DNA from: Zychaea mexicana
Taxonomy: Eukaryota > Mucoromycota > Mucoromycetes > Mucorales > Lichtheimiaceae
Direction: 5' to 3'
Assembly (NCBI RefSeq): GCF_025766255.1
Contig: NW_026516764.1
Span: 1 to 64,000, forward strand
DNA length: 64,000 bases
The notes beneath the pieces are model-generated. The model ran no database searches. It saw nothing but the letters and a program-made list of their open reading frames with translations, and was not told the origin of the DNA. Both the position numbers and the translations under genes were made by a program. Positions 33,893 to 57,911 of the stretch are shown one piece after another; position 1 is the stretch's first letter, and the number at the start of each line of letters is the position of its first letter.

Positions 33893-36800
33893 TTAGGATC
33901 CCTGTAATACATGTTTTTTACGGCGCGCTCGTTTCTTGGGGATTTGTACATTAACTGTAAACAGTGGTTGTGATGGTGTAGACAATGGTGATGGCGCCAG
34001 AGCAATTCTTCTAGGACTATTGCGACTAAAACCTAATGGTGATGCACCGAGAGAGTTTGGTGTTGATGATGAGATAGTTGTTGCTACTGATGACGGGTCA
34101 GCTACTGCTATTGATGATGGTAACGAGTTTTGCAGATCTTCTTGTACTATGGATTGGAGGGCAAATGGAGGCGGTGACGGTATGCTAGCAGGTAATGCGG
34201 AACATCCTCTGCTTGGTGACATCAATTCTGCGTTCATCGTTTCACAAATGCCATCGCTAATTGCTTTGCTAGCGCGTGTCAATCGTCTCTCATTCCATCG
34301 CTCGAAATGTATTTTTAGATGATCTGGTGTCTTGTAAAATACTGTTACTCCATCTACCGGCTTGGATGTGGATGCGTTCCAAAGCTTTGCCAATCTGGTC
34401 CAGTCTGATGCCCCAATAGTTCTTTGAGCTGGTCCATGGATGATTTCTTAAAACTTTTCAAGTTCCTGCTTCGTGTGGACAGGGGTAACAGCATACTTTG
34501 TTCCTTGTTTTTAGGCAAGAAAGATGTAGCGCTTATTCAAAGGATTGGCCGTAGAACCAGGCGGTAAGAAGATGTTGATACTAATGTTGAGAGAGTATGG
34601 CCGAGGTTTGAGCGTATTCATTTGGTCGCGATGCTCTTCGTTGTTTCGTTCTTCTGCTGAAGACATGTCTATCCCAAGTGTGCGAGCAACGTCAGGTGCA
34701 AATTCTGCAATACCAAATGTCTCGCTGCACTCTTTCAGCTCCAAGCCTTGGACATGGGCACCCGCTTGCTCCTCAATAGCACCACCAGTGCCGAAAATCC
34801 CAAGCTTCATCCGTAGGTATACCAATGCTTCAATCAACCATGGATCATAATGTCCCTTGTACTGACGTAAATATCGATTCATAGTGCCGATTTGATATAT
34901 AAGGTATCTCAATATCAAAACTAATTGAATTCAGTGGATATCACCTTTTACCTTCAAGTTATGACGAAGTCGATACTCAGCAAGAAAGCAATCAGCCAAA
35001 TGTGGTCCGGCACCGCTAGAACCAATAGCACGGATAATGTTTTGATGGACTCCACCCTCTAGAGAGTTTGTTCCACGGGCACACCGATAAAGGGGAAGGT
35101 TTGCTTTTTTGTCGTATCCAATTTTATAGTACAGCGGCATATCGGGATGATCGGAAACTTGGCCTTCATATATTGCCTTGAGCATGTTTTGGGCTTGACG
35201 GTGGGCATCATTATCAAACAATTTCCTTCCAGTTCTGGTGCAAATTAGGTTACTGTATTCAGCAAAAAGATTTTGGACTTTAGGACCGAGCTCGTGTGGT
35301 GGTGGGACGATACGTTTTACTCTTCGCATAACCCAAGATGGATTCGTGTTCAGCATGTATTCCCATGTAATGTTTTTGGTCGCTAGATATTGCTCCACTT
35401 TTTGCCGATCTTCTTGGTGCACAACAAAGATAGCGTTGCGTAGTTGCCGGGAGAATTCTTTTGCGAGAACGTGCCGTTTAGGTATCTTGATAAGCGCCAT
35501 GAAGTGATAGATGTCTTTTAGGATTCTCGAATATACTGGTTGCTGCTGGGTATCCTGCGCATAAATATTTGTGAAGTTGAAGCTTGAAGAGTCGGAACAT
35601 GTTATATTCGATGTGCTTTGTTCATTGGAGTTGTCATTGGGTTCGTGTGATGTTGACGTCGAACAAGAAGATGTTGACTCCTGATCACTATCGTCTGGTA
35701 TACTGTCGGTTATATGAGGTGTATCGTGCATATCGTCAGGTATGTTGGCTTGTGATCGGTTGTTGCCTTGATGCGGTGGTTGCTCTCTCCATAAACATAG
35801 CGACTTTTTTTCGAATCGTAGCATGGATATCGGTACTGTCACAGCAAAAGGGAGGTCTCCAAATTCCATAAGAGTTTTTTGAGTGTGCGAGTCAAGAATT
35901 GCGCCAGGAACACAAACGTGATTGATCGATATATATGCCATGTTGTCGTCGAATGTTATCTAGTAATTCATGAAGAGAAGCACATGTTGTTAATGAATCA
36001 TATATTTCTTCCAAAGAATATTACGTAAATCGTAAAGTACCTGCTGCTCATTGTGTAATATCTCGCCATATGCAATTGGAAATGAACATTGAAGACGGGA
36101 ATAAATAGCAACGTACCCACCATGCGGAGGAGGATTTAGTACGGTTTTACCCAGTGTACGAAAACACACAAGCTTTGTATATCGCCAACGACGCCCACGC
36201 GTCCAGCGCTGCATAATACACTTGATTCTCGGAAAGATCTTGTAACTCCCAGTTGCTGTCTCTATCATTTTTTTCGATCCTACCCCCAAGTACTTCTTCA
36301 GCAATTGTAGATAGTCCTACATTTCCATTTTCAATGAAGCCTCGTCTACGAGAGAACTTGCCGAGCTCCAACCCCGTGCCTTCATGATAGTCTAGTCCGT
36401 AGTCGCGCTTTAGTTTTTTTTAAGTCACCACTAACATTACGGCCAGCTTTTAGGACCTTGGACGACTTTAGAAGAGTTTCAATAGAAGGAGGAATATTAT
36501 TATACTGGTGGATTGGCAGGATAAAGACGTAGCTCTAAACCACAAGTTATTTTGTTAGCGTGAAGCTGTAACTTGCCAAAACGATAGTGTAACAGAACAG
36601 AGCCAATACCTTGTATGCTAACTGTAATATTGCCACTTTGCCAGGGGAAGCATGTCGACTGAAGTTCCATTCGCAATCCAAACCAATTACAATCGTTTGT
36701 GGATCAATATCACACAAGATGGTGTTCGTAATTTTTTCTTCAGCTTCGGTTTCATTGCGTATGTAGTGCGTAGTAATAAAGGTTGGCAGGTGTAATATGT

Positions 36801-38753
36801 GATTGTTGCGGGTAGATTCAGTTAAAGTCAAACTGTTAATCTTGAGACCGTTCTTCAATGAGCTGATATTATCAAGTAGGAACGCCTTGTCTCCCCGGAC
36901 GTTGTCAGTAAAAAATAGCTGCGGTGGTTTATACCCGTACATGTCGTATGTTTTCATCATTTCCTGAAAAGGCGTCTGTAAATGCGATAATGACTTGGTG
37001 GGGACTAGCAATTGCATTCGTATCTCCTCATACTCGTTACATATAGTATATAGAGCGCCAAAAGTCGGTGCGTCACCCATTTTTGCAACTTTCTTCAAAA
37101 ACTTGAATGTGTGGTCTCCCTTGAGTATCTCTCCATCAATAGTAACCATCTGCTTGTCCATAATTGGCCGAAGAACATCCATGATAGCATTGTATATGAG
37201 TCGAAAATATGGTATAGAAGGAACGTATCCAGCGTATCCTTGAGAATCCTTGAATGTCGAGAACTCAGGGTAGCTTCTGATGCGATTTTCGGTCTCCTTG
37301 TAAGTTGGGTTCGTTCGACGATGTATTTGATATAGGGTGTATATGATATGCAGTCGGATATGGCGTTTGAGGTGCAGCTCCTGTAGCATATCTTGAAAGT
37401 TTGCAACTCCTATACCGTGCTGCATACATGGTCGTAAAATGTCAATGAGATCCTTAGAGATAGATGAATAAAGTTATAAATAACAAATTTATGATATTTT
37501 ATTATTCTGTCAAGCTAGCCTTCAATCCAGTAGGTCTCGGCTAGAGAGGGGATTTGCTCACTACCGTTCCGCCACTTTAAGAAATTCTTATGTTTATAAA
37601 AAACATAAAAATATTTAAAGTTTACAAATTTTATTAAAGATCACAAAATTAAAAAACCATATTTATAAATATAGTTTTTAATTTTTAAACTTATCACATT
37701 AAAAAATTTCACAATTTTTTAACTAACAATAATTTCACTAAAATTATAACACTAAGGGTTATCACCCATAGCACACCGATAGGAAAAAATGGCGGGAAAT
37801 TCTGCTGCTAGTTCGTTGGGCAGCTGTTTCAAGATTTTTTCATCGTGTGCACCCAATGAGGCATGACAGGTTTTGCATTCATATCGTCTTGACATAATAT
37901 AAAAGCATCTTTCAAACACATAGTTCGCTGTTAAAGGCTTGCCATGATTGTTGCTGCTAATAATTCATACCTGTTCATGTCCACCACTCGACGTGCATAA
38001 GGTCCTTGTAGAAGCCTTTATCTTCAAGTTTGCTTTTTTCAAAGGTATTTTCGTCCGCCTCATTGTAGCACCTCGGATCGCGGCAGTACAATCGATCAAC
38101 CAATAAATGAGGGAACCATAGAAATACACGAGGAAAGTACAATGGCTTGGGATTTAATATACTTTCGTCTCGTAGTGCAAAATAAGGCGACTTTGGCTCA
38201 ATCCAAAAAGTTCCATTCTTGTATTCCCTTGGATAACCACCATCTTTGGTCTTGATACGATCTTGGATACTTAAGAAATACTGGGCGAGCACTCCGAAAC
38301 TTTTTTCTTTGTATCCTCTGTCGTCATCATTGAGTGTTTGTGCTTCGTCAGGGATGGGATCTTCCTCGTTTTCCACGCCAGTATCATTATTAGTATGATT
38401 TTCTTCCTCTAATTCGTCGATCAAGTCCTTTAAAGTATAGTTATCGTCATCCACACGAGCCTATATAATCGATACAATAAGTATATGTATGTGGTGGCCC
38501 TTTCTGGATACAACCTGTTGGGAGGAAACTTCACAGCTTGGTTGCTCATTGATATCGGGTGGTGAGGCTGTGGCTTCAGCGCTTGTTGTGTCGCGTTGTT
38601 CTGAAGAAAGGTAGCGCGAAGGAACGTATTGCATCAAGCTCGTCTGACCGCGAGCGCGAGCCGAGGAGGATTTCTGCTTTTTATTTTTGCTACCTATGAT
38701 AGAGGTCTACCGCGACGACGTTTTCCATCTGACCGAGAAGTAGAATCACCCAT
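33893..38753 (-). pseudogene. Copy 1: Zn-domain / DDE transposase with embedded DEDDy exonuclease
   Basis: Read from ATG 38753. A disordered N-terminus (QKSSSARARGQTSLMQYVPS) is followed by a Cys-rich domain (FPRVFLWFPHLLVDRL; YECKTC), resembling the domain Pfam calls DUF6729 from memory. The transposase-like core then has GDHTFK (first Asp, ~37100) and LFFTDNVRGDK (second Asp, ~36900). A complete WRN-type exonuclease follows: VIGLDCEW (motif I, ~36675), AGRNVSGDL (motif II, ~36435), VYYAALDAW (motif III, ~36205). After a beta-rich linker the core resumes with RGTNSLEGGVH (final Glu, ~35060) and FLAEYRLRHN. The C-terminus is Ser/Pro-rich and ends KKRARRKKHVLQGS. Breaks: a stop after RGRRGRPLS-like sequence near 38690, a ~0.33-kb AT-rich insertion (about 37455-37780) and one extra A in an A8 run in motif II. 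Confidence 0.75.
37455..37780. mobile_element. AT-rich ~0.33-kb insertion in copy 1
   Basis: It interrupts the Zn-binding domain between AEFPAIFSYR and SKDLIDILRP; copy 2 is continuous across the same point (LEYPATLSHKSGVSKELM). The insert is about 80% AT with short palindromes. One end carries a 43-bp sequence (about 37472-37514) also found inverted at about 52518-52560. Ends and TSD are not resolved. Confidence 0.6.
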
Positions 38754-39081
38754 TATTTGTCAAATACGTTATGAGGAGGTGATAGAGTGAGAAAAAATAC
38801 AAGACGAAAGACCCGTGCAAAAGTGCTGTTGTTGACAGGAACAATCAAAACGCCAACTGATATACCCACACACAAGCGCTACACAGGGGCAACACAAGAT
38901 ATCGGCACACGTAACAACCCCCGTTAACTTGTTATCTCATTGGCTACCCTCACACTTTGCACCCAGAGAGCAGTTGCTTAACTTTTAATATCATTGGATG
39001 AGAGTCTACCCCAGTAGCTTCAACCCCGCCAAAATTAGAGGCGAAAAATCAATTACTTTATTTGGAAATACATATGAAAAT
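38754..39081. other. Spacer between copy 1 and the hAT relic
   Basis: Should contain the promoter side of copy 1 and the 3' end of the hAT element. No hAT terminal repeat was identified here. Confidence 0.3.
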
Positions 39082-41059
39082 CTAAATCTGTTGAAGGGAG
39101 GGGGTGAAAAGTGTTGACAATTTGTATTTATAAGATTGGTTTTCTGCTGGGTGCACTTGTATGTCAGGAGTTTCAGCTGTTTCGTCGTCAACTTCACCAT
39201 CAAGATCCAAGAACCACTCATTAACAAGAGCATTCCACTGCCGTGGAGTCATGTCAGCCTCTTCTTCACTCCGGAGGTTCCGGTCTTCTTCCTCCATGTA
39301 AAGTTCGTCGTCCTCGGCGCCTTGGCTTTCAACGCTATCAAGTCTTGCTAGTGCGGGAAGTGCTGGTGCTTTGCCTTTATCCTTGGCGTGCTTCTTCTTG
39401 AGTGTGGCACGAACTTGGGCAATGTGAAGAACTTTTTGCCAATGAAGCTGGTTTCTCCTAGTGCTATGGATGTACCCCATGTCGCTGAATAATCTCTCGC
39501 ACGAGGCCGAGTTCACACCAATCGCCAGCAAGCGTCGCGCCACAAAAGCAAGTTCTTTGCACGACTCGTCGTTGGCAGCCACCATTTTCCAAAACTTGTC
39601 CGGGTTGCGACCGGATCCAATGTAGCCTTCATCATCGAGCGGCCAATCCCTATCGTCGTACTTCATGACTTGTAAAAGCATGGTTTCGGCCTCGTTTCCT
39701 GTCCATTTATTATAGTACATTTGAGCCCACTCGGTAATGATTCTCGACGTGATGCCCCGTCTGTTGCATGCTTCTGGATGTACAGGTTCCGGATAGCGGT
39801 TGATGTAATCCAAACGGTACGTTGGATGTAGATACATGGCCAGAATCAGTAGCGGTTGCTCCTATTGATACCATCTTTTTTCCAGTCGCTTGACAAATAC
39901 TTGGACAGCATCATCTGGCAGTCTTCTACGCACACGTCGATCTTATCAGTCGTAAACATGGGGAGTAGCTTCGCGAACTGAGTGGCAATGTAGTATAGCT
40001 TGGCATTATCTCGTTGGAGAACATCTAGGCACAATGCAAATGGTTCGAGCATTGCCTTGATTCCATCGATATCTTCCCAGAAGGCCATGGAGCGAATGTT
40101 GTTTGCAACTTCGTCTGGTATTTTGGCACCTGCATCAGATCCAGAATTCGAAACGACGAGCTAAGTCAAGACAAAACAATAAGTATGAGTGCTAACCATT
40201 GTACACGTATATTTAAAATCCATAATATTGATCGCTTTACCTAAAAAGAATCCTTCGTATCAAGCAAGTTTTTCAAAGCATCGAAGTAACTGTTCCATCG
40301 TGTTGTTGCAGGTTGACGAAGACTAACGCAGCACTTATTTGGGGTACCATCTTGATGGTCATGGAGTTTTCGTGTCAAATATGTTGAGCGATTGAATGTT
40401 TCGATGAGTTTGACAGCTTGCTGCATGCAAGAATTCAAGTCTGGGAATGCCTTCAACATATCGGCTATGCAGAGATTCATCTGGTGGGCAAAGCATGGCA
40501 ACCATATAATCTGTTGATGCTTTCGACGTAGTTGTGAACGGGCAGCAGCATAGGCACTCGCTGAATTAGTAACAACCGCGATGACCGTGATGTTGTGCCT
40601 CTTGATCCGCTCACTCTCGTCGAAAAGTAACGTCTCCAATTTTTAATTAACATCCAGCGTCCTTGCTTGCTCTCCTGAGATGTCTTTTGCGTCCCAAATG
40701 ACGCTGCTCCCACTTGAGGTGTTGAGGACTATGCCAAGTATCGACTCCTTGGAGACATTTCGCCATCCGTCGCATGTTAGAGTTCCGCCTTGTATATCTT
40801 GAGCCTCGGCAATGAGTTGTTCATTCGCAGAATCGGCAACACGTGAAAGAATTTTGGTTGATAGGTTTTGCCTTTTAGGTATGGCTCCATTTGCCTAGAA
40901 GAAGGCCGTACTAGTTAGTTACATCTTATTACATCATAAAAATATAAAGTATAATAACATTGCATCTTCTTATTACCAAAGCGCGATCATTCAAATGGAG
41001 CAAGTATTCGATGACCTCTAAGTTTTCGATCCAACGGAATGAAGATTGGCCGACACAGT

Positions 41060-42844
41060 CACTGTAGGAAAATTCTTGTGGTTCTTGTGAATTTCTTGTG
41101 AATTTGGACCCCCGCTGGCCTCATTCTTGTGGTTCTTGTGGATTTCTTGTGAATTTCTTGTAAATTTGTGACGTCTGTCACTGCCTGCTCTGGGTCGCCA
41201 AATTTTTGTGGATTCTTGTAGATTTCTTGTGAATTTGGACCCCGCCGGCCTCATTCTTGTGGATTCTTGTGGATTTCTTGTAAATTTGTGACGTCTGTCA
41301 CTGCCTGCTCTGGGTTGCCAATTTTTTTGGGTGGTTCTTGTGGATTCTTGTGGATTCTTGTGATTAAACAGTACTCTCTTGTTATAACCACCTGGTTACC
41401 AGGGTGACAAATACTTTTATATTACCGCAAAGGTTTTTTTTATTTCTTTTCTTCCCAAACACTAACCAAACACCTCCCAACGCTAACCTTAATCTCCTAA
41501 GTCTTCACTCGTATGGAGCATCGTCTTATCAATGTAGAGACGAATCAAGCAATCATTCTAGAGAAGCTCGACCAACTGCTAACGGCGCAATCCCTAGTCG
41601 AGGTGCCAGTTGTCGATGAAGCAGAACTTGCTGAGACGGTTGCCCTCATTCCCCACCCAGTGGCTCTAAATACCAAGGGGAAGATGGTGAAGAAAGCTAA
41701 CAAGGATGATGTCAAGCACCTTCTCCTTCAAGGCTACCACCAGTTTGAAGGTGGTGCTTTGATCAAAGCCAAGACGGACATCAAGCACATCCGGGAGCGT
41801 GTTGTGGTCGTATTAGAGAAGAGATTGCGGGATCGTGCTGACAACAGCGCGACCTGCTACTTTGCTAAGCTGCAAAGCAAGGATAGCAACTGGGCTATCA
41901 GCCTTTTCACGAACCTGGCAAAGAAGCAGGGAATTGATTTTGCTGTCTGCTAGGACCAGTGGGCAGCTCGCCACATCGTCCAAGAATGCTGGAATAACTA
42001 CGGCAGATCCAGCAAGCTGAGGTATGATAACTACTACACTAGAGCAACCACAATTGAATATATATTAACTTTCAGGTAGACAACATGAACTGGCTTCTGC
42101 GTCTCTTCCTGCTTCTCTTCCTGCTTCTCTTCCTGTCTCTTCTGCTTCTCTTCCTGCTTTCGCTTCTGCTCTTCCTGTCTCTTCTGCTTCTCTTCCTGCT
42201 TCTCCTCCTGTCTCTTCTGCTCTTCCTGTTTCTTCTGCCTCTCTTCCTGTTTCCACTTCTGCTCTTCCTGTCTCTTCTGCTTCTCTTCCTGTCTCCGCTT
42301 CTGCTTTTCTTCCTGCCCCTGCCCCTACTCCTTCCTCCACGCAGTCTACCAAACGACGCCGTACTACAAAGCGGCTCGGAGCTGCTCCCCCCCACAAAAA
42401 TATACATAATTAAAAGGTAAGTTAAAGTATCAGAAAGTTGATTATTGTATAAACACACACACATACACGTATATATATAGCGAGAGTGTATGTGATATAT
42501 AGAGAGAGAGAAAGGGGTGGTTTTCATCTGTATACGCTCGACCAGTATTCCATCAATCAATAAACCTTAGCTAGTATCATGTAATTGAATAAAGCTATAT
42601 TTTTTAAAATCTATATAATGAATATTCCACAAAAATGTTTTGTGATTTTCCTGTGAACGTGTGACCGCTTTGGTATTCCACAAAACGTTTTGTGATTTTC
42701 TTGTGAACGTGTGACCGCTTTGATTTTCTTGTGAACGCGTGACCGCTTTATCGCTACTTTAAATTCACAAGAATCCACAAGAATTCTTGTTACTTTACTT
42801 AGTGTTTACAAGAATTTAAAATTCACAAGAATTTTCCTACAGTG
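41060..42844. mobile_element. CACTG-ended (CACTA/CMC-like) element in the hAT gene
   Basis: Left end CACTGTAGGAAAATTCTTGTG and right end CACAAGAATTTTCCTACAGTG form ~21-bp perfect TIRs (each motif spans 21 positions; outer bases CACTG/CAGTG). The 3-bp duplication AGT lies at 41057-41059 and 42845-42847. CACTA/G termini with a 3-bp TSD are the hallmark of the CMC (EnSpm) superfamily. Removing element plus one TSD restores DKALRAT-VSANL in the hAT frame. Subterminal arrays of TTCTTGTG(G/A)ATT motifs occupy 41075-41360 and 42630-42830; on the left they include a ~131-bp direct repeat. There is no transposase, so it is non-autonomous. Confidence 0.88.
41513..42413 (+). pseudogene. Passenger ORF of the CACTG-ended element
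   Basis: An ATG at 41513 opens 146 codons (NQAIILEKLDQLLTAQSLVE; KKANKDDVKHLLLQGYHQF) to a TAG at 41951-41953. The same frame continues past it as DQWAARHIVQECWNNYGRS, so the TAG looks like a nonsense change. An intron (about 42021-42079) then leads to a Ser/Leu/Pro/Ala repeat exon (SASLPASLPASLPVSSASLP) ending in a basic patch, TKRRRTTKRLG, and TAA at 42411-42413. I do not recognise the family. A coiled-coil N-terminus plus low-complexity tail and basic end suggest a DNA-associated or nuclear protein, which is inference. It is not a transposase. Confidence 0.5.
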
Positions 42845-43992: not shown

Positions 43993-44278
43993 CAGGGAAT
44001 TACCCGCAATTTTCGCCAATTTTCACTAGGCGAAAATTGCGGTTGGCGAAATTCGTCAATGCTGGAATTTTGAGAGTACCAAAATATAATCCATCCAATT
44101 CCAAATTGAAAATATGGCTTGCGCAAAAATGAAAAAAAACCAAGTGCCAAGTAAAAAACCATTGTCAGCCATTCTAATTTTCATCATGCGCCAAGTTATA
44201 TCCCCCATCTGCCAAATGGAAATTCGTGTCACGCCAAGTTGAAAAGCAAGATGCGCCAAACATTAGTGAAAATCCTTT
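43993..44278. repeat. Dispersed repeat copy with phased GCCAA motifs
   Basis: 44094-44278 is the inverted partner of 22236-22410. The adjoining 43993-44060 has TTTTCGCC / GGCGAAAA motifs like 33620-33705. It sits between the hAT relic and the end of the copy 2 transposon. Confidence 0.65.
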
Positions 44279-44383: not shown

Positions 44384-46986
44384 CTAGTTCAATTTCTTTC
44401 TTTTTCGTGTATTATCATTATTTGCACTACATGATGGGTGAGATCTGTTTTGACTGCCAGGGCAATTTTGTGGATCAGTGCAGCCTTCATTTTGACAAGT
44501 CTGGGAATATTTTTGCTGTTTCTTTGGTGGTAGGCTTTTGAGGAAATCAGCACGGCTTATGCTTGATGGTGATGATGATGGTGCTCTAGGTTGCATTTGC
44601 CGTATATAATGTTGTTGGTGTTGTGGCTGGATTGCTTGTTGCTGAGGTGTAGGACTATAGTGCATATGCTGCTGCACTTGGAATGATGGATATAATTGCG
44701 GCGGAGGCAGTTGCGGTTGTAGTGTAAATGTAGTAGGCGGTGGCGGTAATGCTGACATGGGTGGACGTGCAAAGGAATACAAATCAGATTGGCTGTAAAC
44801 TTGTTGTTGCTGTTGCATTGGCCGTGGAGCAAGCGGTTGGTAGACAGAAGATCTAGATTGCAGTCGTCTAGATGTACTACGTTGTATTGAGGATGGCAGT
44901 GTCGGTGCTGGCAGATTCAATCGAGGCTCCAAGATTTCAGCAGTACGATCAGAGTTATCACGTATTTGGGATCGTGGGCGAGCTGTACCTTCCAAGCTAT
45001 TCCTTATCACCGCGTTCTGACTCCATTTGTTGAAATATGTGCGCAGATACTGTGGGTACTTAAAAAAAAATATTGCCCCCGTCAGTGTGTATCAAGTTCC
45101 ATGACTTGGCGAAAACGGTCCACCTCGTTGAGTTCGGTTGCTGACTGTTGTAGAATTGAGATATCTGTCGGTTGAACAAAGCTACCTCTTCTTTAGTATG
45201 TACAGGTAGTATTGGATACTGGGTGCCTTGACGAGATGCTAAATATGCTGCTCTCACAGCTGCACTATCTCGTTTGTTGGCCTGTTCAATTGATGGTCTG
45301 TAATGCTGCACGCCATATGTATCCAAGCTTTCGTCGCTCGTCTTGCAAATGTCAAACTTTTCTTCAGTCGAGGCCAACAGATCCGTGTTCTGCCAAGCAA
45401 GCCAATGTTTTGGTAGCTGCAATTCGCGTCGCAAGTATGCAAGCTGGATTTTGTTCTTCATTCATATATCGTAATGTCCCTTGTATTGTTTGCCTGTGCG
45501 ATTCAGCGTACCAACCTGCCACATAAGAAAATGTTCGAGTTGTTCAGTAAATTGGTCACTTTTTTCAAGCTATGAGATACACTTACATGTATATTATGTT
45601 GTGTTCGATATTCGACAAGCAAATTAACCACAAATCTCGGACTCGCATTGAAAGCTCCAAAATGCCTCTTTAAATTTTGGTGCACACCGCCCTCAAGAGA
45701 GTTTGTTCCCCTTAGACATTGATATACTGCCAAACCATTTTCATCCCGTCGTTGAAACAAGTACAATGATGTCCCAGGTGGATCGCTCAAATATCCTTTG
45801 TCAATAAGCTGTAGCAAATTTCGTGCGTCTTTCCAGGCCTGTTTGTCAAATAACGGTCGACCACTTGAGGCGCATTTCAGAGGTCCAAACGTCATGAATA
45901 AATCGTACACATCTTGTACAATTTTTGATGGTGGTGGGACAACGCGGCGTATTCGCTCGTTAATCCAAGATTTGCGACGCCAACGAACTAAAATAACATG
46001 GTTTTGATATTTCAAATTAAGCTTGTTGTCGCCCACAATAAAAGAGAATCATATAGATATATACCCAATTCAAATCTCTCTCCTTTTTCATGCCGAACCC
46101 GGGTAACAGCTGCAACATCTCCAGAATCCATTCACAAAATTGCGTCAGTTAATTTACGTTGGAATTCTATGCGTAACCCATGTTTCTTTGGTATTGAGAT
46201 TCTCTTGAGCGCATGCCAAGCATCTTGAGCGATTCTGGTGTGGATGGCGTTATCTTGTTCCAAGCGTTGTGGTCGATACTTTTGTAAAATAGGATCGAGG
46301 AGGCGACTGCCATAAATCTTGGAGCTCTCGTCGATAGCTAAAGTGTATGGCGTTGGCACCGGCATATCATCGTCACTGTCGTCTTCCGAGTCAGTTTCAT
46401 TAATATCCCATGCTTGCACGTCATTGTCGCTGCTATGATCAGTTTGACCAGCTTGCGATTCCGGATGATCCACGCTCTGTGATATGTTTAGTGTTTCCTC
46501 ATTGTGTACGGTGGCGACAGGCTTAATAAGTTGATAACAAGGACGGAGTGACAACAAACGCACTAATATACAAAACGGAGCAGCACCAAATGACGAAAGT
46601 GGCTGGCTATCACATAATTGCAACTTTGCCGCAGGGATCAAGACAGTAGTAACTTCAACCAGTGCACGATTTTCCGTTATCGTCCGCTTATTAAAGATTC
46701 TGGAAAAAAGTCAGGGTTAGCTTAATATTAGTAATATGATTTGACTTATTGTGTTATTCCTACTACGAATTGGTGCAAGCAAGGAGTAAGTAAGGGAGAG
46801 AATATGTACATACCCACTTTGTCTAGCATCGCTGATTTTCCCGCGCGCCACCTCCACAGTACCATCGTCGCTTAGTACTGTTACATGTACACCAGCTCGT
46901 CGATTTATGATGTCATTTCTAGGCGATGTCACTTAGAAATAAATTTGCCGACTACTCCAGGCATCCAAAGCTGCATAGTGTACTTG
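44384..46986 (-). pseudogene. Copy 2, C-terminal part (exonuclease motif III to end)
   Basis: This part resumes the interrupted gene with QVHYAALDAWSSRQIYF (DEDDy motif III, ~46955-46986). A beta-rich linker follows (RAGVHVTVLSDDGTVEVARG) and an acidic segment. The end of the transposase-like core is RVVPPPSKIVQDVYDLF, then YQCLRGTNSLEGGVHQN (final Glu, ~45695) and LLVEYRTQHNIHV. After an intron the frame reads VGTLNRTGKQYKGHYDI and meets a TGA where copy 1 has Trp (GHYDPW); the sequence beyond (MKNKIQLAYLRRELQLP) stays protein-like, so this is a nonsense mutation. The C-terminus is Gln/Pro-rich with a last Cys cluster (TCQNEGCTDPQNCPG) and KRKKLN. Confidence 0.72.
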
Positions 46987-46994
46987 CTCGTCAG

Positions 46995-48003
46995 TAGGGA
47001 TCCGCACGGTTCGGTTCGGTTCGGTTCTTGAAGGGAACCGAACCGAACCGACTAGAACCGACGAGAACCGTAGAACCGAAGAATCGAACCGAAGAACCGA
47101 ACCCATCATGTATATAAAAAAGGCAAGATTCGGTATTTTTAAATGAAAGCTGATGTGTGTGTTCAAATGTCGCGGTATACTTGAATACTGCAGTAAAAAA
47201 GAAAAGTTTATTATTATACATTGAACAGCGATCTCAAAATGAATAAGAAGAGAAACAGAATGTAAACATTCTTATACGATGTGGGTTATTGCATGGTTAA
47301 AAGATTGAAGCACAGTTTTTCCAAAAAAAAGTGGAGCTTATAGTACTTACTTAGAGCGACTTAGTATTACTAGTACAATATGTTATCGTAACATTGGAGG
47401 AATTGAACCACAACCGGCAGTACATACAGCTGCTGTGTCTCTACGTGTGTATAGTGTATAGTGTCTCATAAAAGGCAAAGGGTGAATGGGTAAGATAATT
47501 CTGTTATGAGCCCCAGAATGCGCAATCTCAAATGGAATGCACAAGCTTGATAAAACTGATCGAGAAGCCATGATAAATCTAGTAAAGTAGTACGTCATGG
47601 AGAAAAATGCATTGTGGGTAGCAAAGTAGAGGAATAAGTAATAATGCGCGTCATGGGCGGAGAAAGCAAGCTGCCATCAGAAGAAGTGTTTTTTCTCTTC
47701 TCTTCTTTACTATTTTTCCCTCCCTTCTGCTTTTGCAGGTTTTGTTAAGTTTTTAAATAAAGTATGGCTTGCAAATACACTACTTCTTGGACTTTACGGG
47801 ATAACATTGTTCGTAACTTCCATTATAGCCACTTTATACTAATTAACAAAATCGCTAAATGCAATCTTCTGCCTCTCAGTTCTTTGGTTCTACGTATACA
47901 AAACCGGTTCGATTCCGGTTCGGTTCTTGGTAGGAACTGAACCATATTTTCTCGGTTTCGGTTCGGTTCGGTTCCGGTTCTACGGTTCTGATACGGATCC
48001 CTA
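46995..48003 (+). mobile_element. hAT-type MITE A
   Basis: 1009 bp, starting TAGGGATCCG and ending CGGATCCCTA. Subterminal arrays of GGTTCGGTTC / GAACCGAACC motifs occur at both ends. There is no coding capacity. It is nearly identical to MITE B in the interior (for example the stretch around 47380-47700). Confidence 0.88.
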
Positions 48004-48146
48004 CTCATAATAACCTTTAAGGCTATTATAGAATGTGGATAATAGGGATTTAATCCATAATAATTAATTTTACTGTAAACAGTAAAATAATTTTATTATG
48101 TCTTTCATGTCAAGTGTTCGAATAAAAATTTATGATTTTTAAATGA

Positions 48147-48310
48147 ACTGGGCGTCGTTGTTCCTCCTAGCCTGTTTTTCCTCAAACTTAATAGTTGAGA
48201 TTAATCCTAATGGTTGAGAAACTTATAGTGTTTGAGAAATTATTTTTTAACTAAAAAAATTAATTTCATTATTTATTATAATCTCTTTAAAAGTGTATTC
48301 CCTATAGTTT
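48147..48310 (+). repeat. Left inverted repeat of the cargo element
   Basis: Matches the reverse complement of about 52330-52496 with scattered differences. Shared blocks are GGCGTCG, CTAGCCTG, AAGAAATTATTTTTT-like and AATTTCATNATTTATTATAAT. It is interpreted as an old terminal inverted repeat. Confidence 0.65.
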
Positions 48311-48318
48311 TTTATTTA

Positions 48319-50234
48319 GAGAAGTGCTACGGGTACGAGTTTTTTATCTTACGCGTACGAGTTTTTCTAAGCGGGTTTTTAAGGTGGTTGTGTTGTGAAA
48401 CCTCATATGGCCAATCCGATTGCCGTCTTACACGTACGAGTTTTTTGCTAAAGGAACTGAACAGCATATGCGTACGAGTTTTTGTCTACCCATCAGTCTT
48501 CCCTTTTTTTAGATGGCCTTGTCAAAATAACTAGCTATTGTCATACTTCTTGATGTAAAACTGCTCATTAAATCGGCGCAATGGATTTAATTACGCTGTT
48601 CTTTTCGAAATCTTACAGGATTCTGTTCTGCCACTATACAGTGATGGCATATACAAGTTTTGCATTCCTTCTTTTCTTTAAGTTCTTGGCCTTTTCCCAA
48701 TATTAGATGGCACACTAAGCTCGATATCAGGTTTCCAATAAATCTAGCAATTCATTTGTTTGTGTGGAGGAGTTTTCTACTGAGTCCACATAGGTAACAA
48801 TCACTTATAAAAGAACTCTGGGCAGCGCTCTTTTACGCTTACGAGTTTTTTTTAATCTGTTTCCACGTAAATCATAATTAGCGGGGACAGATTTTGACAA
48901 TTGTCTGCTTACGCGTACGAGTTTTTTCTATCCTGGTTCTATGTAAATCATGACTAGCTGGGGCAAATTTTGACAGCTATCTGCTTACGGGTACGACTTT
49001 TCTTAAGCCTGGTTACAGTGAGTTATTTGTTAATCTGAAGACCGTTCAAACAGCTCCATAGGAAGTTGGAGGTTCATAGGAGACTTGCTCACTGTACTTT
49101 CGAGTACCATATGCTTTTCAAATGTAGAAAGACTATGATCTGATATTTTAAGTAGAAATAATAGTGAGGGTAAGTACTAACTTCCTACTTCATAGTAAGA
49201 CCAAGACTCTAACATCGAAACATTGCGCCTTACATACATGACTTACATTCAAATGATCCTTGCACCCGAAACAGCCATTTTATCTATAGCTGACGATCTG
49301 GAAGAAGGTACTGTAGAAGGAGCAAAAATCTAAATGAATGGGGATCTAATGCAGATAGAAGGTGTTGAAGATCTCACGTCTTATGCACGAACTCGCATGT
49401 GGAAAAGTGCATATTTCGTTCCATTGTTTCTAGAAACGTATAAATAGTATTGACAATTTTCATTACCTTTTTCCCGATAATATCTTGTTGTAACAACCCA
49501 TTTGTTAATCTCTCCTCCATTTCATTTCTATTTTTCTCTTTCAGACACAATTACCGTTATTCACCTTATACTTACTCTCACATGAATTAGCGTCTTAAAT
49601 CTCTTATGTCTTCTTTTGCCTTTTACCTTTTTATAATAAACACCGATTCCCTACTGCAACAGCTTATGCTCAGGGAATGTTTTACACGTGGAACCAGATT
49701 AAAAGAAACTCGTAAGCGTAAAAGAGCGCTGCCCAGAGTTCTTTTATAAGTGATTGTTACCTATGTGGACTCGGTAGAAAACTCCTCCACACAAACAAAT
49801 GAATTGCTAGATTTATTATAACCTGATATCGAGCTTAGTGTGCCATCTAATATTGGGAAAAGGCCAAGAACTTAAAGAAAAGAAGGAATGCAAAACTTGT
49901 ATATGCCATCACTGTATAGTGGCAGAACAGAATCCTGTAAGATTTCGAAAAGAACAGCGTAATTAAATCCATTGCGCCGATTTAATGAGCAGTTTTACAT
50001 CAAGAAGTATGACAATAGCTAGTTATTTTGACAAGGCCATTTAAAAAAAGGGAAGACTGATGGGTAGACAAAAACTCGTACGCATATGCTGTTCAGTTCC
50101 TTTAGCAAAAAACTCGTACGTGTAAGACGGCAATCGGATTGGCCATATAAGGTTTCACAACACAACCACCTTAAAAACCCGCTTAGAAAAACTCGTACGC
50201 GTAAGAAAAAAAACTCGTACCCGTAGCACTTCTC
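48319..50234. mobile_element. 1.92-kb foldback element with ~550-bp TIRs (MULE-like)
   Basis: The left arm (48319-~48868) and right arm (~49685-50234) are almost perfect inverted copies, starting GAGAAGTGCTACGGGTACGAG (21 positions) on the left. A 9-bp duplication TTTTATTTA lies at 48310-48318 and 50235-50243. Long TIRs with a 9-bp TSD point to a non-autonomous Mutator-like element. The arms contain spaced copies of TACGAGTTTTT (about 48335, 48357, 48440, 48472, 48840), and the loop continues the series (48916 and a variant at 48988) with a ~90-bp repeat. There is no transposase. Confidence 0.88.
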
Positions 50235-50347
50235 TTTTATTTATTTATTATTTTATTTAAGACATAATATTAAGGCTTAACTTCCATAAAAGAAAAGAAG
50301 ATTATTTTGAATCTAATATAAGGAGTATACCAATGATATGTTCTTGA

Positions 50348-51414
50348 TCAATGCGATACCCTATGTATCTTTTTTATTTTCCCATCTTTCATACACTTTT
50401 GTCGAATAACAGGGTTCAGGCAGGTACAACACATCTGACTTGTGTTTCTTTTACCCGTCATTACTACTGGACAGTTCCTTCTGTGTATTTGTCTAAGTTT
50501 CTTGGTGCCTCTTCGCTCATGGCTACTGAATCGACTACCCACTTCTGTTCCTTGCGTTACAATATACATCATGGGGATGACATCCTTGATAATACTGCCA
50601 GAAACAAACTGACGCTCTTTCGAACAGATTTGGTCATATATATGACTCTGCTGAAACTGGATTGTGTACTTGTCATATTGATGTTTTTTACTGTTGTGGT
50701 ACTTTTTCATGCTAGCCTGCTTGTTGACAGCCTTCTAAAGCATATAGCAAAATGAAAATAGTAAGTATACACTGCAAAAAATTTAGAGTATTAAAACGGT
50801 ACCTGGTAGTGTAGAATTGTTTGGTTTTTGTTAATGGTAAGGTCTAAAGACTTTTTCGCCAGCATTTCCTTAGCGACAAGCACCTCTTCAGGCTACTATT
50901 ATATAAAAAATGTCAGTGTAAGCCTAATTTAATCGTAGCCAGTGCCCTTAAATAAGATAGTAGTGGATCCAAAAATAAAGCATAGCAATATTGTCGTTGT
51001 TCTTGCACCTTGCAACAACAGCTCCTGAAGCAATTGATACATCTTTGGCCCGGATGTTATATAGGTGGAGCAGCTTTGGTTCTAATATAGATAGTACTTA
51101 ATTGCTTGGTATTTGTCCACCCTTGTTCACTTTGTCAACTTGTATCACTCCAATTACCTGAGCCTCAGTTACGTGGGATGTACAAGCCTTAACAGCAAAA
51201 CAGCAATGCCTTAGTCAGTTCCACTGTAGTTGATTGATTTGTCCTCTTGCTCAGCTTGCCTTTTAAGTATATTGAGGTTGGTACGATGTGGCACATCCAT
51301 GCTTCGTCTGTCACTCAAAGTCGGTGTGCTGGTGTAATCCTTGAGGGCCCTTGTTGAAGAAGCCTCCTCGTTGTCAGCCTTTTTGCCTTTTGCATTGATT
51401 GCTTTTGCTATCAT
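50348..51414 (-). pseudogene. TnpB/Fanzor-like nuclease relic (zinc-ribbon end)
   Basis: The best-preserved part is 50710-50348: SRFSSHERRGTKKLRQIHRR, then KRNTSQMCCTCLNP and KDGKIKKIHRVSH. This fits the C-terminal zinc ribbon of TnpB/Fanzor proteins (E/K-x-N/R-T-S-x-x-C-x-x-C, then a basic strand and a second Cys pair). A TGA stands where the next Cys (HC...) is expected, and TYHW follows. Upstream to 51414 only broken pieces are seen, for example VIQVDKVNKGGQIPSN near 51130. Fanzor proteins are eukaryotic RNA-guided DNA nucleases found inside transposons. The RuvC Asp residues are not identifiable, so this is a dead fragment and the family call is tentative. Confidence 0.5.
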
Positions 51415-51699
51415 GTATTTGTCCAGTCAGCATTGGTCAAGAGCAACTACAACATGTACATAGTTTGTAAAGTATATATTCCTTTTTTGTTTTAGTTTCT
51501 TGATTTCTATTGCGAGAACTGATTTCCTATCCACTTCTTCTTCTGTGTGCTTTAGGGTGGTGATTTTGTTCTATATTCCCCAGAATTTCTTTCATTCTTC
51601 GTTTCTTGAACCAAATCCATGTTGGTTAATCATTTTTACTCATTATTTGAATATATCAATATATCTTAATATATATTTTCATAATCCTCCTGAAGTATT

Positions 51700-52200
51700 A
51701 TACTAGACAGAAAAGAAAAAAAAGAATTTTCTTTTTATAAAATAATTATCAATAATAATAAATGACAATAAACATTTTACTTTATGTCATTTCACTATTT
51801 TAAAATTACTTATGTATAATATATAAATTATAATATAAAAGAAAAACTATTCTTTTTCTTCTATCTATTTATATTCTTTATCTTTAATTTCTAAAATTAA
51901 TGATATTAATTTCTTAGGTTTATTTGAACCTCTTTTGAAGTATTGAATATAATAAAAGATAAATGTTATATATTTTTATATATTTCTATTTCTAGAAACA
52001 AGAAAAACAATTTGTTTTTCTTAATATTACTATAAAACAAACTTATTTTTAATCTATTTCAATGCTAAGAAAATTAAAAATATTTAATATTTTGATTTTA
52101 ATCTCTTATATATTTATTTTATTTATATATATAAATATTATAAAATTCTAAAATCTTGTAGTTTTTCTATATTCAATAAGTCAATGTTTATCTCTCCTAG
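51700..52200. other. Extremely AT-rich stretch
   Basis: Very low GC with TATATTT and AATAAA runs; open frames are lost. It lies between the Fanzor-like relic and the right inverted repeat of the cargo element. Confidence 0.6.
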
Positions 52201-52320
52201 TATATTACCAAAGGAGCCATATCAATCACCAGGTATGACACAACAACTACAACATGCTCAACTACTTGGAGAACCAAAAAGCTACAACGGGTTTTTCAAT
52301 CCTAGAGGGATGGGTCTTAG

Positions 52321-52497
52321 CAAAATGATTTTAGCAAAATTATTATTAGCTAATTTTTAAATAATTATAATAAATCATGAAATTAATTTTTTCTAAAAAA
52401 AATAATTTCTTAACCCCTAAATGATTCTTAGCCAAAATAATTATTCTAAATCACTAAGTTTAGAAAAAATCAGGCTAGAACTTTAGTTCGACGCCTG
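52321..52497 (-). repeat. Right inverted repeat of the cargo element
   Basis: Inverted partner of 48147-48310. It also contains short tandem TTAGCAAAAT motifs (52317-52350). Together the pair defines an element of ~4.35 kb now, ~2.4 kb without the foldback insertion. Confidence 0.65.
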
Positions 52498-52611
52498 GAG
52501 TGAATGAAATGAACGGAGCTTGACAGAATAATGAAATATCATAAATTTGTTATTTATAACAAAATTTATAGATATTGAATATTCTTCCTATACACAAAGC
52601 TATGTTGTGGC

Positions 52612-53627
52612 TAGGGATCCACACGGTTCGGTTCAGTTCGGTTCTTGAAGGGAACCGAACCGAACCGTCTAAAGCAAGAACCGAACTGACTAAAACCGAC
52701 AAGAACCATAGAACCGAAGAATCGAACCGAAGAACCGAACCTATCATATATATAAAAAAGGCAAGACTTGGTAAACTGATGTGTGTGTTCAAATGTCGCG
52801 GTATACTTGAATATTGCAGTAAAAAAGAATAGTTTATTATTGTACATTGAACAGCGATCTCAAAATGAATAAGAGAAACAGAATGTAAACATTCTTATAC
52901 AATGTAGGTCATTGCATGGTTAAAAGATTGAAGCACAGTTTTTACAAAAAAAAGTGGAGCTTATAGTACTTACTTAGAGCGACTTAGTATTACTAGTACA
53001 ATATGTTATCGTAACATTGGAGGAATTGAACCACAACCGGCAGTACATACAGCTGCTGTGTCTCTATGTGTGTATAGTGTATAGTGTCTCATAAAAGGCA
53101 AAGGGTGAATGGGTAAGATAATTCTGTTATGAGCCCCAGAATGCGCAATCTCAAATGGAATGCACAAGCTTGATAAAACTGATCGAGAAGCCATGATAAA
53201 TCTAGTAAAGTAGTACGTCATGGAGAAAAATGCATTGTGGGTAGCAAAGTAGAGGAATAAGTAATAATGCGCGTCATGGGCGGAGAAAGCAAGCTGCCAT
53301 CAGAAGAAGTGTTTTTTCTCTTCTCTTCTTTACTATTTTTCCCTCCCTTCTGCTTTTGCAGGTTTTGTTAAGTTTTTCAATAAAGTATGGCTTGCAAATA
53401 CACTACTTCGTGGTCTTTTCGGAATAACATTGTTCGTAACTTCCATTATAGCCTACTTTATACTAATTAACAAAATCGCTAAATGCAATCTTCTGCCTCT
53501 CAGTTCTTTGGTTCTACGTATACAAAACCGGTTCGATTCCGGTTCGGTTCTTGGTAGGAACTGAACCATATTTTCTCGGTTTCGGTTCGGTTCGGTTCTG
53601 GTTCTATGGTTCTGATACGGATCCCTA
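52612..53627 (+). mobile_element. hAT-type MITE B
   Basis: 1016 bp with the same TAGGGATCC...GGATCCCTA ends and GGTTCGG subterminal arrays as MITE A, in the same orientation. It differs from A by small indels near 52660-52780 and scattered substitutions. Confidence 0.88.
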
Positions 53628-55539
53628 CTCGTCAGTAAGTCGACCTTCCCAATTGCCTTGTTGTAAATCCTTGGATAGACGATGTTGTAGAATTGTTGCG
53701 CACATATCTGCCAGACTTGTTCTAGTAATTGTTTTGCATTTGTACTCGTTGCATATTGTCAACAGGTCCACGACATTGGATGCTTGAAGGTTATGGTGCA
53801 CACACCTTATAATCCACAATTTTGAAATTTGTTTCAATTTCGAGTTTTCAGATTCCGCTTCTATATATGGTAGTTTTTAATCATCAATGCCTACTTTCCG
53901 ATGGGAGCTTGCAACTTTGGTTATGAATATCCTCACTTCTTCATCTTCTGCCCAGGCATCCTCTCCCTTTACTTATATGCTTCTATATAATAAAACCATC
54001 TTTTGTAATATCTACGAATCTTTGTGGGGTTATTGGGGGAAAAGCTTAGTCTAAAGCAATAGGAAGGTGTTTCTGAAGGCTAGCAGAGGAGTTGTCGCAC
54101 ATTCCTCTTATGCAGCTGCAATTGCTCCATTATAGTGACGAAGTTACTGATTTCTGTTCAATTGTGCTTTTTAGCAGCTTTCTTTTGATCTTTAGGACGA
54201 GGTATAATGGAGAAATTGTGTGGAATACGCATGAGAAGGCAAAGCAAACATGAACCTAAGTTAGTAGCCAGTCGTAAGTGGCTTTGCACCGCTTAAATAG
54301 TTTACCCATAAGGCTAAACTTGATTTCCGCTTGCTTAAGTATAATCCTATATGTTTCAATTTGCTATCCCTCAGCCAAAAGTGACCAACTTCAGAAGCCT
54401 ATAACTTTTTTTAAAGAAGCAAGAACTCAAATCTAATCCACAAATATTGTTTTTAAAGGTCTAAAAAACATAAGTAGCCGCTTCTTTTTTTATTTTAAGG
54501 TGATATTAAAAAGTAGTAGGGATTCAAAGATTACCCAAGAATTTGCAGATAATAAGGTGCTTGCACCATATTAAATTGTTGAGGAAAAGATTTTGAAAGC
54601 CAGGTGATATCATTTGCGATGTTACGCCCAACCTTGATGATATCTTTGCGATTAAGCAGCGTCCAGATAGCATGTGGCAATGATGATAACTTCTCAAACT
54701 TTAATATTGATACTCGGTCGTCATATGCAACTTGTATTATTGATACTGGATGCCACGTTGGATCATTTTCATGAAATGTCCACTCTGCATCAAGACCAAC
54801 GACGATCGGTTGCTGTTCAGTGCCATTTTGTTCGAGTAGTGGTGTCAAAGCAGCTTCGATTTGCAAAGGTGAGCTGTGAATTGTTACTGAAATTGTTGAT
54901 GGTAGCTGTAGCTGCGGCAGATGATAATATGGATCAGCGACTATACGTAGATGAACTTCAGTACGAAGAGATTCGATTTGTGTTTCAAAAAACTGTTTAT
55001 CGGCCTCGACTTTGTCAGTAAAAAGGATTTCTGGGTGACGGCGGGAAACTGTTGAATTCTCGGGCAGTAAGGCATCGAACCATAAAAAAGCGGTAGCAGA
55101 GGAGAACATAAAGTGGAAAGAAGGAAGAATAGGAGGGCCTGTTGAATCAACAGCAATGTTAATAGCAGTCGTTATGTCTTGTAGGCTGCAATGTATTTGA
55201 CGCAGGCTTCGACTTACCAGTAAGGTATACATACTCAAGTCCTTTTGGGGAGTTTTGACTTTTCGACTTTTCTTTTTCTTTAGACTATAACTTTTTGTAG
55301 AAAGGAAGATCAGCAATCACGTTCAAGCAGAGCACAACAGAAGCACATGACTACTTACTTCTCGGGGGGCTTTTTTCACTGGCACCACCAGGGGAACGCT
55401 GGCGCTAGCCCTACCCAGTCGACATACATCTCGTTGGAATCTTCTTCTTCGCACCACTCGTCGATGTCCATTGGCTCATCAGTATCCATGGAATCATCGT
55501 CGTCTTGTTTTTTCTCTTCATTGTTTGGGACACCGAGGG

Positions 55540-56140
55540 CGGAAAGAGTGGAGGTGGAGCAAATAGAGGGATGGTGGGGGCAGCTTAGTGTTGTGGCATT
55601 GGTGATTGATGTTGTTGTTGCAGTGAGTGAATATGCTGCGGTGGAAGCCATTGATGTTGTTGGTGTTGGGATGGTTCAGGATGCTGCGGCAGAAAGAGTG
55701 GAGGTGGAGCAAATAGAGGGATGGTGGGGGCAGCTTGGTGTTGTGGCATTGCAGATTGATGTTGTTGTTGCGGTGAGTGAATATGCTGCGGCGGAAGCGA
55801 TTGATGTTGTTGGTGTTGGGATGGTTCAGGATGCTGCGGCAGAAAGAGTGGAGGTGGAGCGAATAGAGGGATGGTGGGGGCAGCTTGGTGTTGTGGCATT
55901 GCAGATTGATGTTGTTGTTGCGGTGAGTGAATATGCTGCGGCGGAAGCAATTGATGTTGATGGTGTTGGGATGGTTCAGGATGCTGCGGCGGAAAGAGTG
56001 GAGGTGGAGCGAATAGAGGGATGGTGGGGGCAGCTTGGTGTTGTGGCATTGGTGATTGATGTTGTTGTTGCGGTGAGTGAATATACTGCGGCGGAAGCGA
56101 TTGATGTTGATGGTGTTGGGATGGTTCAGGATGCTGCGGC
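55540..56140. repeat. 150-bp coding minisatellite, four units
   Basis: Units recur at exactly 150-bp spacing (for example ATGCTGCGGCAGAAAG at 55681 and 55831, near-copy at 55981). As 150 is divisible by three, several frames stay open on both strands. Confidence 0.88.
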
Positions 56141-56712
56141 GGAAGTGATTGATCTTGTTGGTATTGTGATGATTCAGGATGCTGCGGCGGAAGCGATTGA
56201 TGTTGTTGGTATTGTGATGATTCAGGATGCTGCGGCAGTGGTGATTGATGTTCTTGTTGCAGTGAGCGAGGGTGCTGCAGCGGTGGTGATTGAGGATGCT
56301 GCAGCGGAAGCGGTTCCAGAGGGAGCACGGGAGACGGGAAGCTGTTTGGCTGAGGTGATGCCGGTGGGGACGAACCCGCACGCGACAGAGCACGAAACTC
56401 ATCATCATCACGATCGAGGCCAAGGACGAACGAGGAGGCAGGGGAGTAGGCTTGCTCAAAGGAGCCGTAGGAGGCGGTGGTGGGGTTGCCATAGTTGCTG
56501 TTGAAGGAAAGAACAGGCGAGTTGATGTTGAAGGTGGAGTTCGTATGGTGAGATAGTTCGGAAGTCACGTCAGGGTCATAAGGGGCAGTGGTTGCGTCGT
56601 CGTCAAAGTCGTAATAACCAGTTTGGTGATTGTAGCTGTTGCTCACAGAAGTCATCGTAGTAATACGGAAAGGTGAAGTGGTAGAGAAGAGAAGAGAAGA
56701 GTAGGTGACCAT
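55585..56712 (-). CDS. Gln/Pro/His-rich repeat protein nested in copy 2
   Basis: 375 codons from 56712. The first ~130 residues are ordinary disordered sequence (SYNHQTGYYDFDDDATTAPY; SFVLGLDRDDDEFRALSRAG). Then comes a Gln/Pro/His tract built of 50-residue repeats (LPPQHIHSPQQQHQS; APTIPLFAPPPLF). The stop at 55585 is TAA where the other repeats have CAA, so it is either the real end or a recent nonsense change. Beyond it, in another frame, lies an acidic sequence (DDDDSMDTDEPMDIDEW, ~55480) that would make a sensible C-terminus if an intron or frameshift joined it. The composition resembles fungal transcription-regulator tails, but no DNA-binding domain is seen and no function is claimed. 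It may be a captured gene or its own mobile unit. Confidence 0.45.
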   Translation of the reverse strand: MVTYSSLLFSTTSPFRITTMTSVSNSYNHQTGYYDFDDDATTAPYDPDVTSELSHHTNSTFNINSPVLSFNSNYGNPTTASYGSFEQAYSPASSFVLGLDRDDDEFRALSRAGSSPPASPQPNSFPSPVLPLEPLPLQHPQSPPLQHPRSLQQEHQSPLPQHPESSQYQQHQSLPPQHPESSQYQQDQSLPPQHPEPSQHHQHQSLPPQYIHSPQQQHQSPMPQHQAAPTIPLFAPPPLFPPQHPEPSQHHQHQLLPPQHIHSPQQQHQSAMPQHQAAPTIPLFAPPPLFLPQHPEPSQHQQHQSLPPQHIHSPQQQHQSAMPQHQAAPTIPLFAPPPLFLPQHPEPSQHQQHQWLPPQHIHSLQQQHQSPMPQH

Positions 56713-57911
56713 GGGCAGTAAGACTTTGTAGCATGGCTAATCGCAAAAATTAGTTTCAGTTACTGTAATGCAATCAGGAAATTGTAAGAAAGAAAGTATA
56801 GTATGCCTTGTATTCCTTGTTCTATGTGATCCATGGATGTAGTAGGCACAAAAGCTTGATACCGAATCTCTTCGTATTCGTTTGTCATTGATACCAACCC
56901 TACAAAAATTTTGCACGAATCTAGTTTGCAAAGATGCTTTGTCACCTATTATCAAAAACAAACAAAGCACTTGTCAGAATATACACAAAAGCAAATAAAT
57001 TAAACTCACCTTATGGCTGTGGTCAATGTTGATTATGGTGGCTGGTAGAGAACTCATGTGGTTGTAGTGGTCGTTTATATGCATTTCAACAAATTCATTG
57101 TACATTTTTGTGAGATACTTAGGACCAGGTGTCGAACCACCATATCCATCTCGATCATCGAATGATGGGAAATTCTTGAACTGCCTTGATGCCGAGTGCA
57201 CTGGTTTATAAAACGAATTGATTGCCGACTGTCTAGTGGGTGATGGATTTTGCTGTTCGTTAGAATGTTCTTGCTGCTGTGGTCTTCCTTCCACATACTG
57301 CCATTCAATTTTGTCGTGCCGCAGGTGGTGTCTAGTGCTCGATGCTTTTGCAAATGAACTGGGCCCCATTCCGTTACCAAAGCACAGCCGCATATTTGTC
57401 ATCAACTCCTTGGATACACCACTTTTATGTGAAAGTGTGGCCGGGTATTCGAGCACAAGTTGTATGGGTAGCGATTCTTCTATCAAGTTCTCGTCTGTGC
57501 CCATAATTGTGTTGACGTCGCATCCGTCGTTTTTGCATTGATATCGATAGGATAGGATGTAAAAAAAGTCGTCGTCGTCTGCGATGCGTCTGGCAAGTGG
57601 GTTTGATAGAAATCCAAGCTCTGTGAGTTTTTGATTGCACTTAGGACACTTGAGCTTTTCTATCAAAAGGTGGACAAGCCAAATGAACACACGTGGCAAA
57701 TATATAAGTCGGTTGGTTCAAAGTATTCCTTCTTATATATAGCGAAAAAGGGCGCTGGTGGCAAAACCCATAAGGTCTTGTTTTCGTAGCAAGCTGGCAT
57801 TCCTTTGCTTCTTCTTTCTCTGTCAATTTTGTTGCGGACACTTGTCAGGTATGGCTCAAATACTTTAGGCGTTGCCAAGGTTTCCTCATTGCGTCCCACC
57901 ATCGGTGTCAT

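Follow-up and report, generated by a model that had tools for sequence, protein, structure and literature searches.

We examined a 64,000-nucleotide stretch of the Zychaea mexicana genome (hereafter the window), the opening 64 kb of contig NW_026516764.1 in an assembly of 50.3 Mb and 305 contigs. The window holds two related copies, A and B, that are very probably decayed DNA transposons. Their one gene would code for a DDE transposase folded like that of IS256, and an exonuclease nested in its catalytic core would trim 3' ends. A preliminary description of the window had listed a colinear series of motifs on the minus strand of both copies. It read the outer three blocks as a DDE triad and placed an exonuclease between the second Asp and the final Glu. 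A motif search located every motif in the claimed order in both copies. The fold of homologous proteins and their conservation bear out a triad on one RNase H fold, and motif order and the same fold support the position of the exonuclease. Matching sequences across the genome and among proteins rule out a chance origin for the motif pattern.

In predicted structures, the single gene codes for a DDE transposase of IS256-like fold whose D, D and E residues lie together on a single RNase H fold. The same models place a complete WRN-type DEDDy 3'-5' exonuclease inside the RNase H core, after alpha2, which directly follows the second Asp, and before beta5, which carries the DxxH motif. The inserted domain has both the fold and the D-E-D-Y-D residues of DEDDy (WRN-type) exonucleases. 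In WRN, the corresponding domain (PDB 2e6l, 2fbt) is joined to a helicase, whereas here it is inserted in a transposase. hAT transposases also have an insertion domain between the second D and the E. When we searched solved structures by sequence, using a profile freed of the exonuclease, no transposase was returned; the fold search alone found one. Exonucleases filled the best 50 of 464 Foldseek matches to the model of one homologue, P0001. The fold matches listed included no structure from MULE, Dada or KDZ, which excludes none of the three. The transposase used for comparison is that of ISCth4, which we take to be a member of the IS256 family. This bacterial protein (PDB 6xgx, 6xg8, 6xgw) is 9-12% identical to the proteins described here and has no counterpart of the exonuclease within the aligned length.

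The preliminary description had called both copies decayed and had proposed a search for intact relatives with transposon ends and target-site duplications. Searched with tblastn against the 50.3-Mb genome, the 342-amino-acid exon of copy A gave 125 matches, which count exon pieces and not copies. We compared 18 genome stretches (L009-L026) and the window, 19 sequences in total, and found both family ends in 15 of the 19. Our first scan for duplications accepted 8-base repeats next to GGC ends only and found them in 10 of the 19 sequences. Because that scan was limited to 8-base repeats, we rescanned, using family motifs to fix the ends and accepting duplications of any length between 3 and 20. 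The duplication was exactly 8 bp in 10 of the 15 elements. These ten duplications are all different; read on the gene strand, they are CTAATTTT, GAATTTAC, GAAATTTC, CTTTCCAG, GTTTTTTT, AAGAAGTG, AAAATTTT, AATATAGG, CCAGTATG and AGGCTTCT. The element ends consist of a common terminal GGC and an inverted block about 13-20 bases further inward (CCGTAGTGA in family B, CCGGACCT in the family of L013 and L023) and do not form one long perfect repeat.

Apparently intact relatives came from family B, the family of copy B. L017, L018 and L019 lie on three contigs and are identical across all 5,039 bp, with different flanks and different duplications. L020 is cut by a contig end; over the 5,029 bases at which it aligns with L021, the two are identical, and they have 8 differences from L017-L019. 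Identity at this level indicates that family B moved recently. The L017 gene reads through six exons and 1,348 amino acids with no stop; its GT-AG introns and start were set by hand, and the gene model is predicted. Since L017 is uninterrupted and has identical copies, intact relatives appear to be present in the same genome. A genome scan that tolerated at most three mismatches in the 5' end of family B identified seven places, namely copy B, the five family-B copies without interruption and one further place. With only seven such ends, there is no sign of many short derivatives. The host genome is rich in DNA transposons, with at least 150 matches to MULE profiles and at least 75 to KDZ profiles, counted as pieces.

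Three protein searches returned 45, 9 and 65 proteins, with partial overlap. The nearest named homologues include proteins of Phascolomyces, Circinella and Fennellomyces. Besides Mucorales, homologues come from mushrooms, among them Termitomyces, Lyophyllum, Mycena, Psilocybe and Leucocoprinus; the fungal order of each named genus is our assumption. We aligned 93 rows, leaving out P0034 and P0045, a stand-alone exonuclease. P0034 (Mucor saturninus) has a DDE_3 domain, presumably of Tc1/mariner type, besides the exonuclease and is probably a gene model running into a neighbouring element. The DDE residues are intact in 49 of the 53 rows that have all three columns, and DxxH is present in 66 of 73. 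The D-E-D-Y-D set of the exonuclease is complete in 56 of 70 rows, from both Mucorales and Agaricales. Between subfamilies of this genome, the ratio of nonsynonymous to synonymous substitution rates (dN/dS) was 0.16 and 0.19 for the exonuclease, with a third pair not computable, and 0.06-0.08 for the part from DxxH to E; the D1-D2 and beta parts gave no ratio owing to saturation. Distances in the exonuclease and in the core correlate across 47 rows (r 0.784; 0 of 2000 permutations as high), as expected from these sequences if the two parts travel together. The deep forks of our trees are open, and L017B, P0083, P0090, P0093 and P0052 are long branches of unsure placement. P0083, from a EukProt transcriptome with the prefix Partr (perhaps, we assume, the aphelid Paraphelidium), keeps the exonuclease residues and falls inside the family in the tree; the family may reach beyond true fungi.

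We compared these elements to the Dada group. A transposase with an inserted exonuclease has been in print since 2013, when Kojima and Jurka named Dada-1_LB, Dada-2_LB and Dada-1_ES (PMC3706591). According to that paper, Dada transposases are of DDE type and bear a distant resemblance to those of MuDR, hAT, P, Kolobok and IS256; they have DxxH past the second D, CCCC and CCHC fingers at the N and C terminus, respectively, and genes with introns except in the Perkinsus elements (PMC3706591). It gives the exonuclease-carrying elements one short paragraph: those of Laccaria bicolor and Ectocarpus siliculosus have a DEDDy exonuclease with four catalytic residues between the second D and DxxH, which the authors propose to process cleaved 3' ends (PMC3706591). 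The elements described here share with Dada the DDE and DxxH motifs, an exonuclease ahead of DxxH, a Cys4 finger, introns and short sub-terminal inverted repeats, which Dada-U6 and Dada-U1 are described as having in place of terminal ones (PMC3706591). Spacing is also similar. D1 and D2 are 70 residues apart in the seven proteins measured, versus 68 (D567-D635) in Dada-U6_DR, and the last finger Cys precedes D1 by 137-151 residues in eight measurable proteins, versus 135 (PMC3706591). From the His of DxxH to the E, the seven proteins have 148-152 residues. A loose N-terminal pattern, C-x1-2-C followed after 28-60 residues by C-x2-8-C, fits 10 of 16 proteins and differs in spacing from the C-x4-C-x34-C-x2-C of Dada-U6_DR (PMC3706591). 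Of 16 proteins, 8 have a C-terminal knuckle-like match, always with Cys at the third place; several of the models may end early, and the knuckle of P0026 has the spacing of Dada.

The elements differ from Dada in their insertion geometry. All Dada elements with clearly definable ends are reported in small-RNA genes with 6-7-bp duplications, although for Dada-U1 the authors did not exclude 8 bp (PMC3706591). Duplications of 6-7 bp and targets in RNA genes are reported again in a 2022 survey of fish, in whose main text the word exonuclease is absent (PMC8869645). Here, by contrast, the duplications are 8 bp, the ten insertion sites are unrelated and the ends carry a common terminal GGC. ARAGORN identified no tRNA in 15 source sequences or at the ten rejoined sites, and Rfam gave no match at gathering score in 12 loci. 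When Rfam was searched permissively at the ten duplication-bearing loci, the four matches obtained were weak, fell inside elements and stayed far under the gathering score. Small nuclear RNA and 5S genes were looked for with the element in place only. No target sequence is common to the ten insertion sites. Targeting of small-RNA genes, as in Dada, was therefore searched for with ARAGORN and Rfam and not found, and to judge from these sites the lineage in this genome is apparently non-targeting. Judged against published descriptions of Dada and not its sequences, our elements would work like exonuclease-bearing Dada and are probably related to them. Since two Dada features are absent here and the comparison is with published descriptions, we do not formally assign the elements to Dada. 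Among the 15 papers listed of 334 matched by a literature search, which did not extend to Repbase, none contains the word Dada, and we saw there no report of it from Mucoromycota.

We propose the following model for transposition. The N-terminal zinc domain and adjoining helices would bind the sub-terminal inverted repeats. The DDE site would cut at the GGC ends and join them to the target with the 8-bp stagger that the duplications record. The exonuclease, beside the active site, may then remove 3' ends freed by cutting, most likely those of the donor flank. The donor break would thereby be resected and repaired rather than merely rejoined. The exonuclease would be helpful in this process and not strictly required.

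Several observations weigh against our model. The 8-bp insertion stagger, the conserved DDE core and the mostly conserved exonuclease within it are read directly from the sequences, while cutting, joining and trimming by these proteins are activities that we infer. Five of the 15 elements depart from the 8-bp rule: L014 has a 4-bp duplication, and L009, L010, L015 and L022 have none. The dN/dS values between subfamilies are rough because synonymous sites are near saturation, and nine closer copy pairs had exonuclease values of 0.29-0.94, a range like that of decaying copies. In the exonuclease tree, family members and a stand-alone exonuclease do not form separate groups, and the tree therefore does not establish that the insert arose once. 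Three Apophysomyces proteins (P0011, P0016 and P0019) have no exonuclease; these are gene models and possibly faulty, as P0019 also lacks the stretch after the Glu and P0011 lacks one in the Cys domain. In P0016 (Apophysomyces sp. BC1021), the transposase part is joined to SH3 domains, which reflects a host-transposon fusion unless the gene model is faulty. Finally, 9 of the 14 rows with an incomplete exonuclease (9 of 70 overall) have lost at least two of the five catalytic residues. Together with the three Apophysomyces models, these rows indicate that the exonuclease is not essential everywhere.

The same losses could mean that the exonuclease works only as an inserted structural domain, giving the transpososome its shape or binding to DNA ends while cutting nothing. 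Three exonuclease-dead proteins (P0010, P0012 and P0048) still have D, D and E, and in a 53-row core tree five dead-exonuclease rows require at least four changes, with the three exonuclease-free Apophysomyces models forming one group. We consider a purely structural role rather unlikely, given that all five residues are retained in 56 of the 70 rows across Mucorales and Agaricales and that the five near-identical family-B copies share the same exonuclease match. Under our transposase-and-trimming model, repeated decay of the exonuclease suggests that the trimming step is useful and not essential. An exonuclease could also have been captured by a transposase of another superfamily (MULE/MuDR, KDZ, hAT or Kolobok). 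hAT elements generate 8-bp duplications. Zisupton elements are also described with 8-bp duplications (PMC12730594), and KolobokD is described as a DNA transposon with a DnaQ-kind 3'-5' exonuclease, which differs in being of DEDDh type and joined to a Kolobok transposase (PMC9587614). The exonuclease here is instead DEDDy and lies ahead of DxxH, as in Dada. KDZ, our first guess from the Cys-rich domain, was rejected when its domain (PF18758) appeared in none of 36 proteins at E values up to 10; a KDZ-associated Cys cluster gave one weak match (E 1.7). The same search listed no hAT domain. MULE gave weak profile matches and seems unlikely. At E values up to 10, three of the 36 proteins touch the MULE profile PF10551, with a best E of 0.019 that is far under the curated cut-off, and hhalign against MULEs of the same genome gave a probability of 10.6 over 24 columns, from shallow alignments. 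Capture by another superfamily therefore seems improbable.

The preliminary description had named host genes that lack transposon ends and have the exonuclease as their sole enzymatic domain as an outcome that would refute it. We considered such a gene family, multiplied by duplication instead of transposition. Database entries for the homologues are indeed named 3'-5' exonuclease and carry PF01612. Against this, the inverted ends are family-specific, ten sites have 8-bp duplications, identical copies lie between unrelated flanks and the DDE fold is conserved. The ends and duplications contradict this explanation, and we assign it next to no probability.

The preliminary description had placed the two copies at 33893-57911. 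Both copies are real, and their limits are different: copy A occupies 33700-39030 and copy B starts outside that range, at 58320. With the copies bounded and copy B broken by three inserts, much of 33893-57911 is other DNA. Copy A is a whole transposon of 5,331 bp with its gene on the minus strand, as delimited by homology to L009-L012 and L022; its nearest family-A copies (L009-L012) are 97-98% identical. Its ends read inward as GGCGGGGTTGAAGCTACTGGGG... and GGCCCTAGTAATATTCCTGGGG..., and the 8-bp duplication AAAATTAG flanks them at 33692-33699 and 39031-39038. The predicted domains all lie on the minus strand. The DUF6729-type Cys-rich N-terminal domain (37768-38133) is in pieces in two frames, followed by a 304-base insert (37464-37767) without counterpart in relatives of about 98% identity. 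The DUF6729 match at 37767-37913 scored 25.1 bits, under the 27-bit cut-off; the close copy L011 scored above it. The DDE core from first to second Asp (36901-37122) runs from KGDHTFK (37102-37122) to LFFTDN (36901-36918). The exonuclease (36195-36687), in two frames, contains IGLDCEW (36667-36687), AGRNVSGDL (36421-36447) and YYAALDAW (36195-36218), with a PF01612 match (E 4e-8) on its C-terminal part. DxxH (KDIYH), the helical insertion and the final Glu follow at 34958-35521, with RGTNSLEGGVH, which holds that Glu, at 35045-35077 and AEYRLRHN at 34958-34981. Motifs identify both transposase parts, and their fold is taken from homologues. Minus-strand open frames adjoining copy A (39082-40894) resemble a decayed hAT transposase, a likeness that we assume from a motif. 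At 27866-32121, 749-bp units, several of which are near-identical, are arrayed in tandem, with an internal shifted repeat.

Copy B runs on the minus strand from 58320 down to 44278, where the match to relatives stops; its 3' end is unmatched beyond that point. Its long 3' piece is about 97.9% identical to L017-L021. The N-terminal part (56974-57962) comprises the predicted zinc domain (LKCPKC ... YQCKNDGC) and the first Asp, in IDHSHK (57010-57027). The second Asp, in ILFTDK (55011-55028), and the N-terminal half of the exonuclease lie at 54558-55040, where the PF01612 match (E 0.025) is under the cut-off. A middle piece of the exonuclease (53628-53794) sits between two inserts. The end of the exonuclease, the linker, DxxH, the final Glu and EYRTQHN occupy 45593-46996. 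The exonuclease motifs are VGLDAEW (54780-54800), VGRNIAND (54609-54632) and HYAALDAW (46957-46980); QDAWH, the DxxH motif, lies within 46201-46239, RGTNSLEGGVH at 45680-45712 and VEYRTQHN at 45593-45616. The nested inserts span 55041-56705, 53795-54557 and 46997-53627. The last has outer ends TAGGGATCC and GGATCCCTA, with CTCGTCAG repeated on both flanks, and looks like an element of presumably hAT type holding further inserts. It includes direct repeats about 5.6 kb apart (46995-48006 and 52612-53630) and a fold-back (48318-50235) with a near-perfect (99%) 416-bp inverted repeat and an inner 132-bp pair.

These elements represent a well-bounded, recently moved and apparently non-targeting version of the Dada-like architecture. 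Tentatively, fungal exonuclease-bearing DDE transposases could form a separate non-targeting lineage, sister or ancestral to Dada, with its own 8-bp geometry and two nested RNase H-fold nucleases acting sequentially on one DNA end. Their ends are clear, one gene is uninterrupted and some copies are identical over 5 kb, which makes the role of the exonuclease directly testable; natural exonuclease-dead relatives provide built-in controls. Our findings suggest that RNA-gene targeting is not general to the exonuclease-bearing Dada-like architecture.
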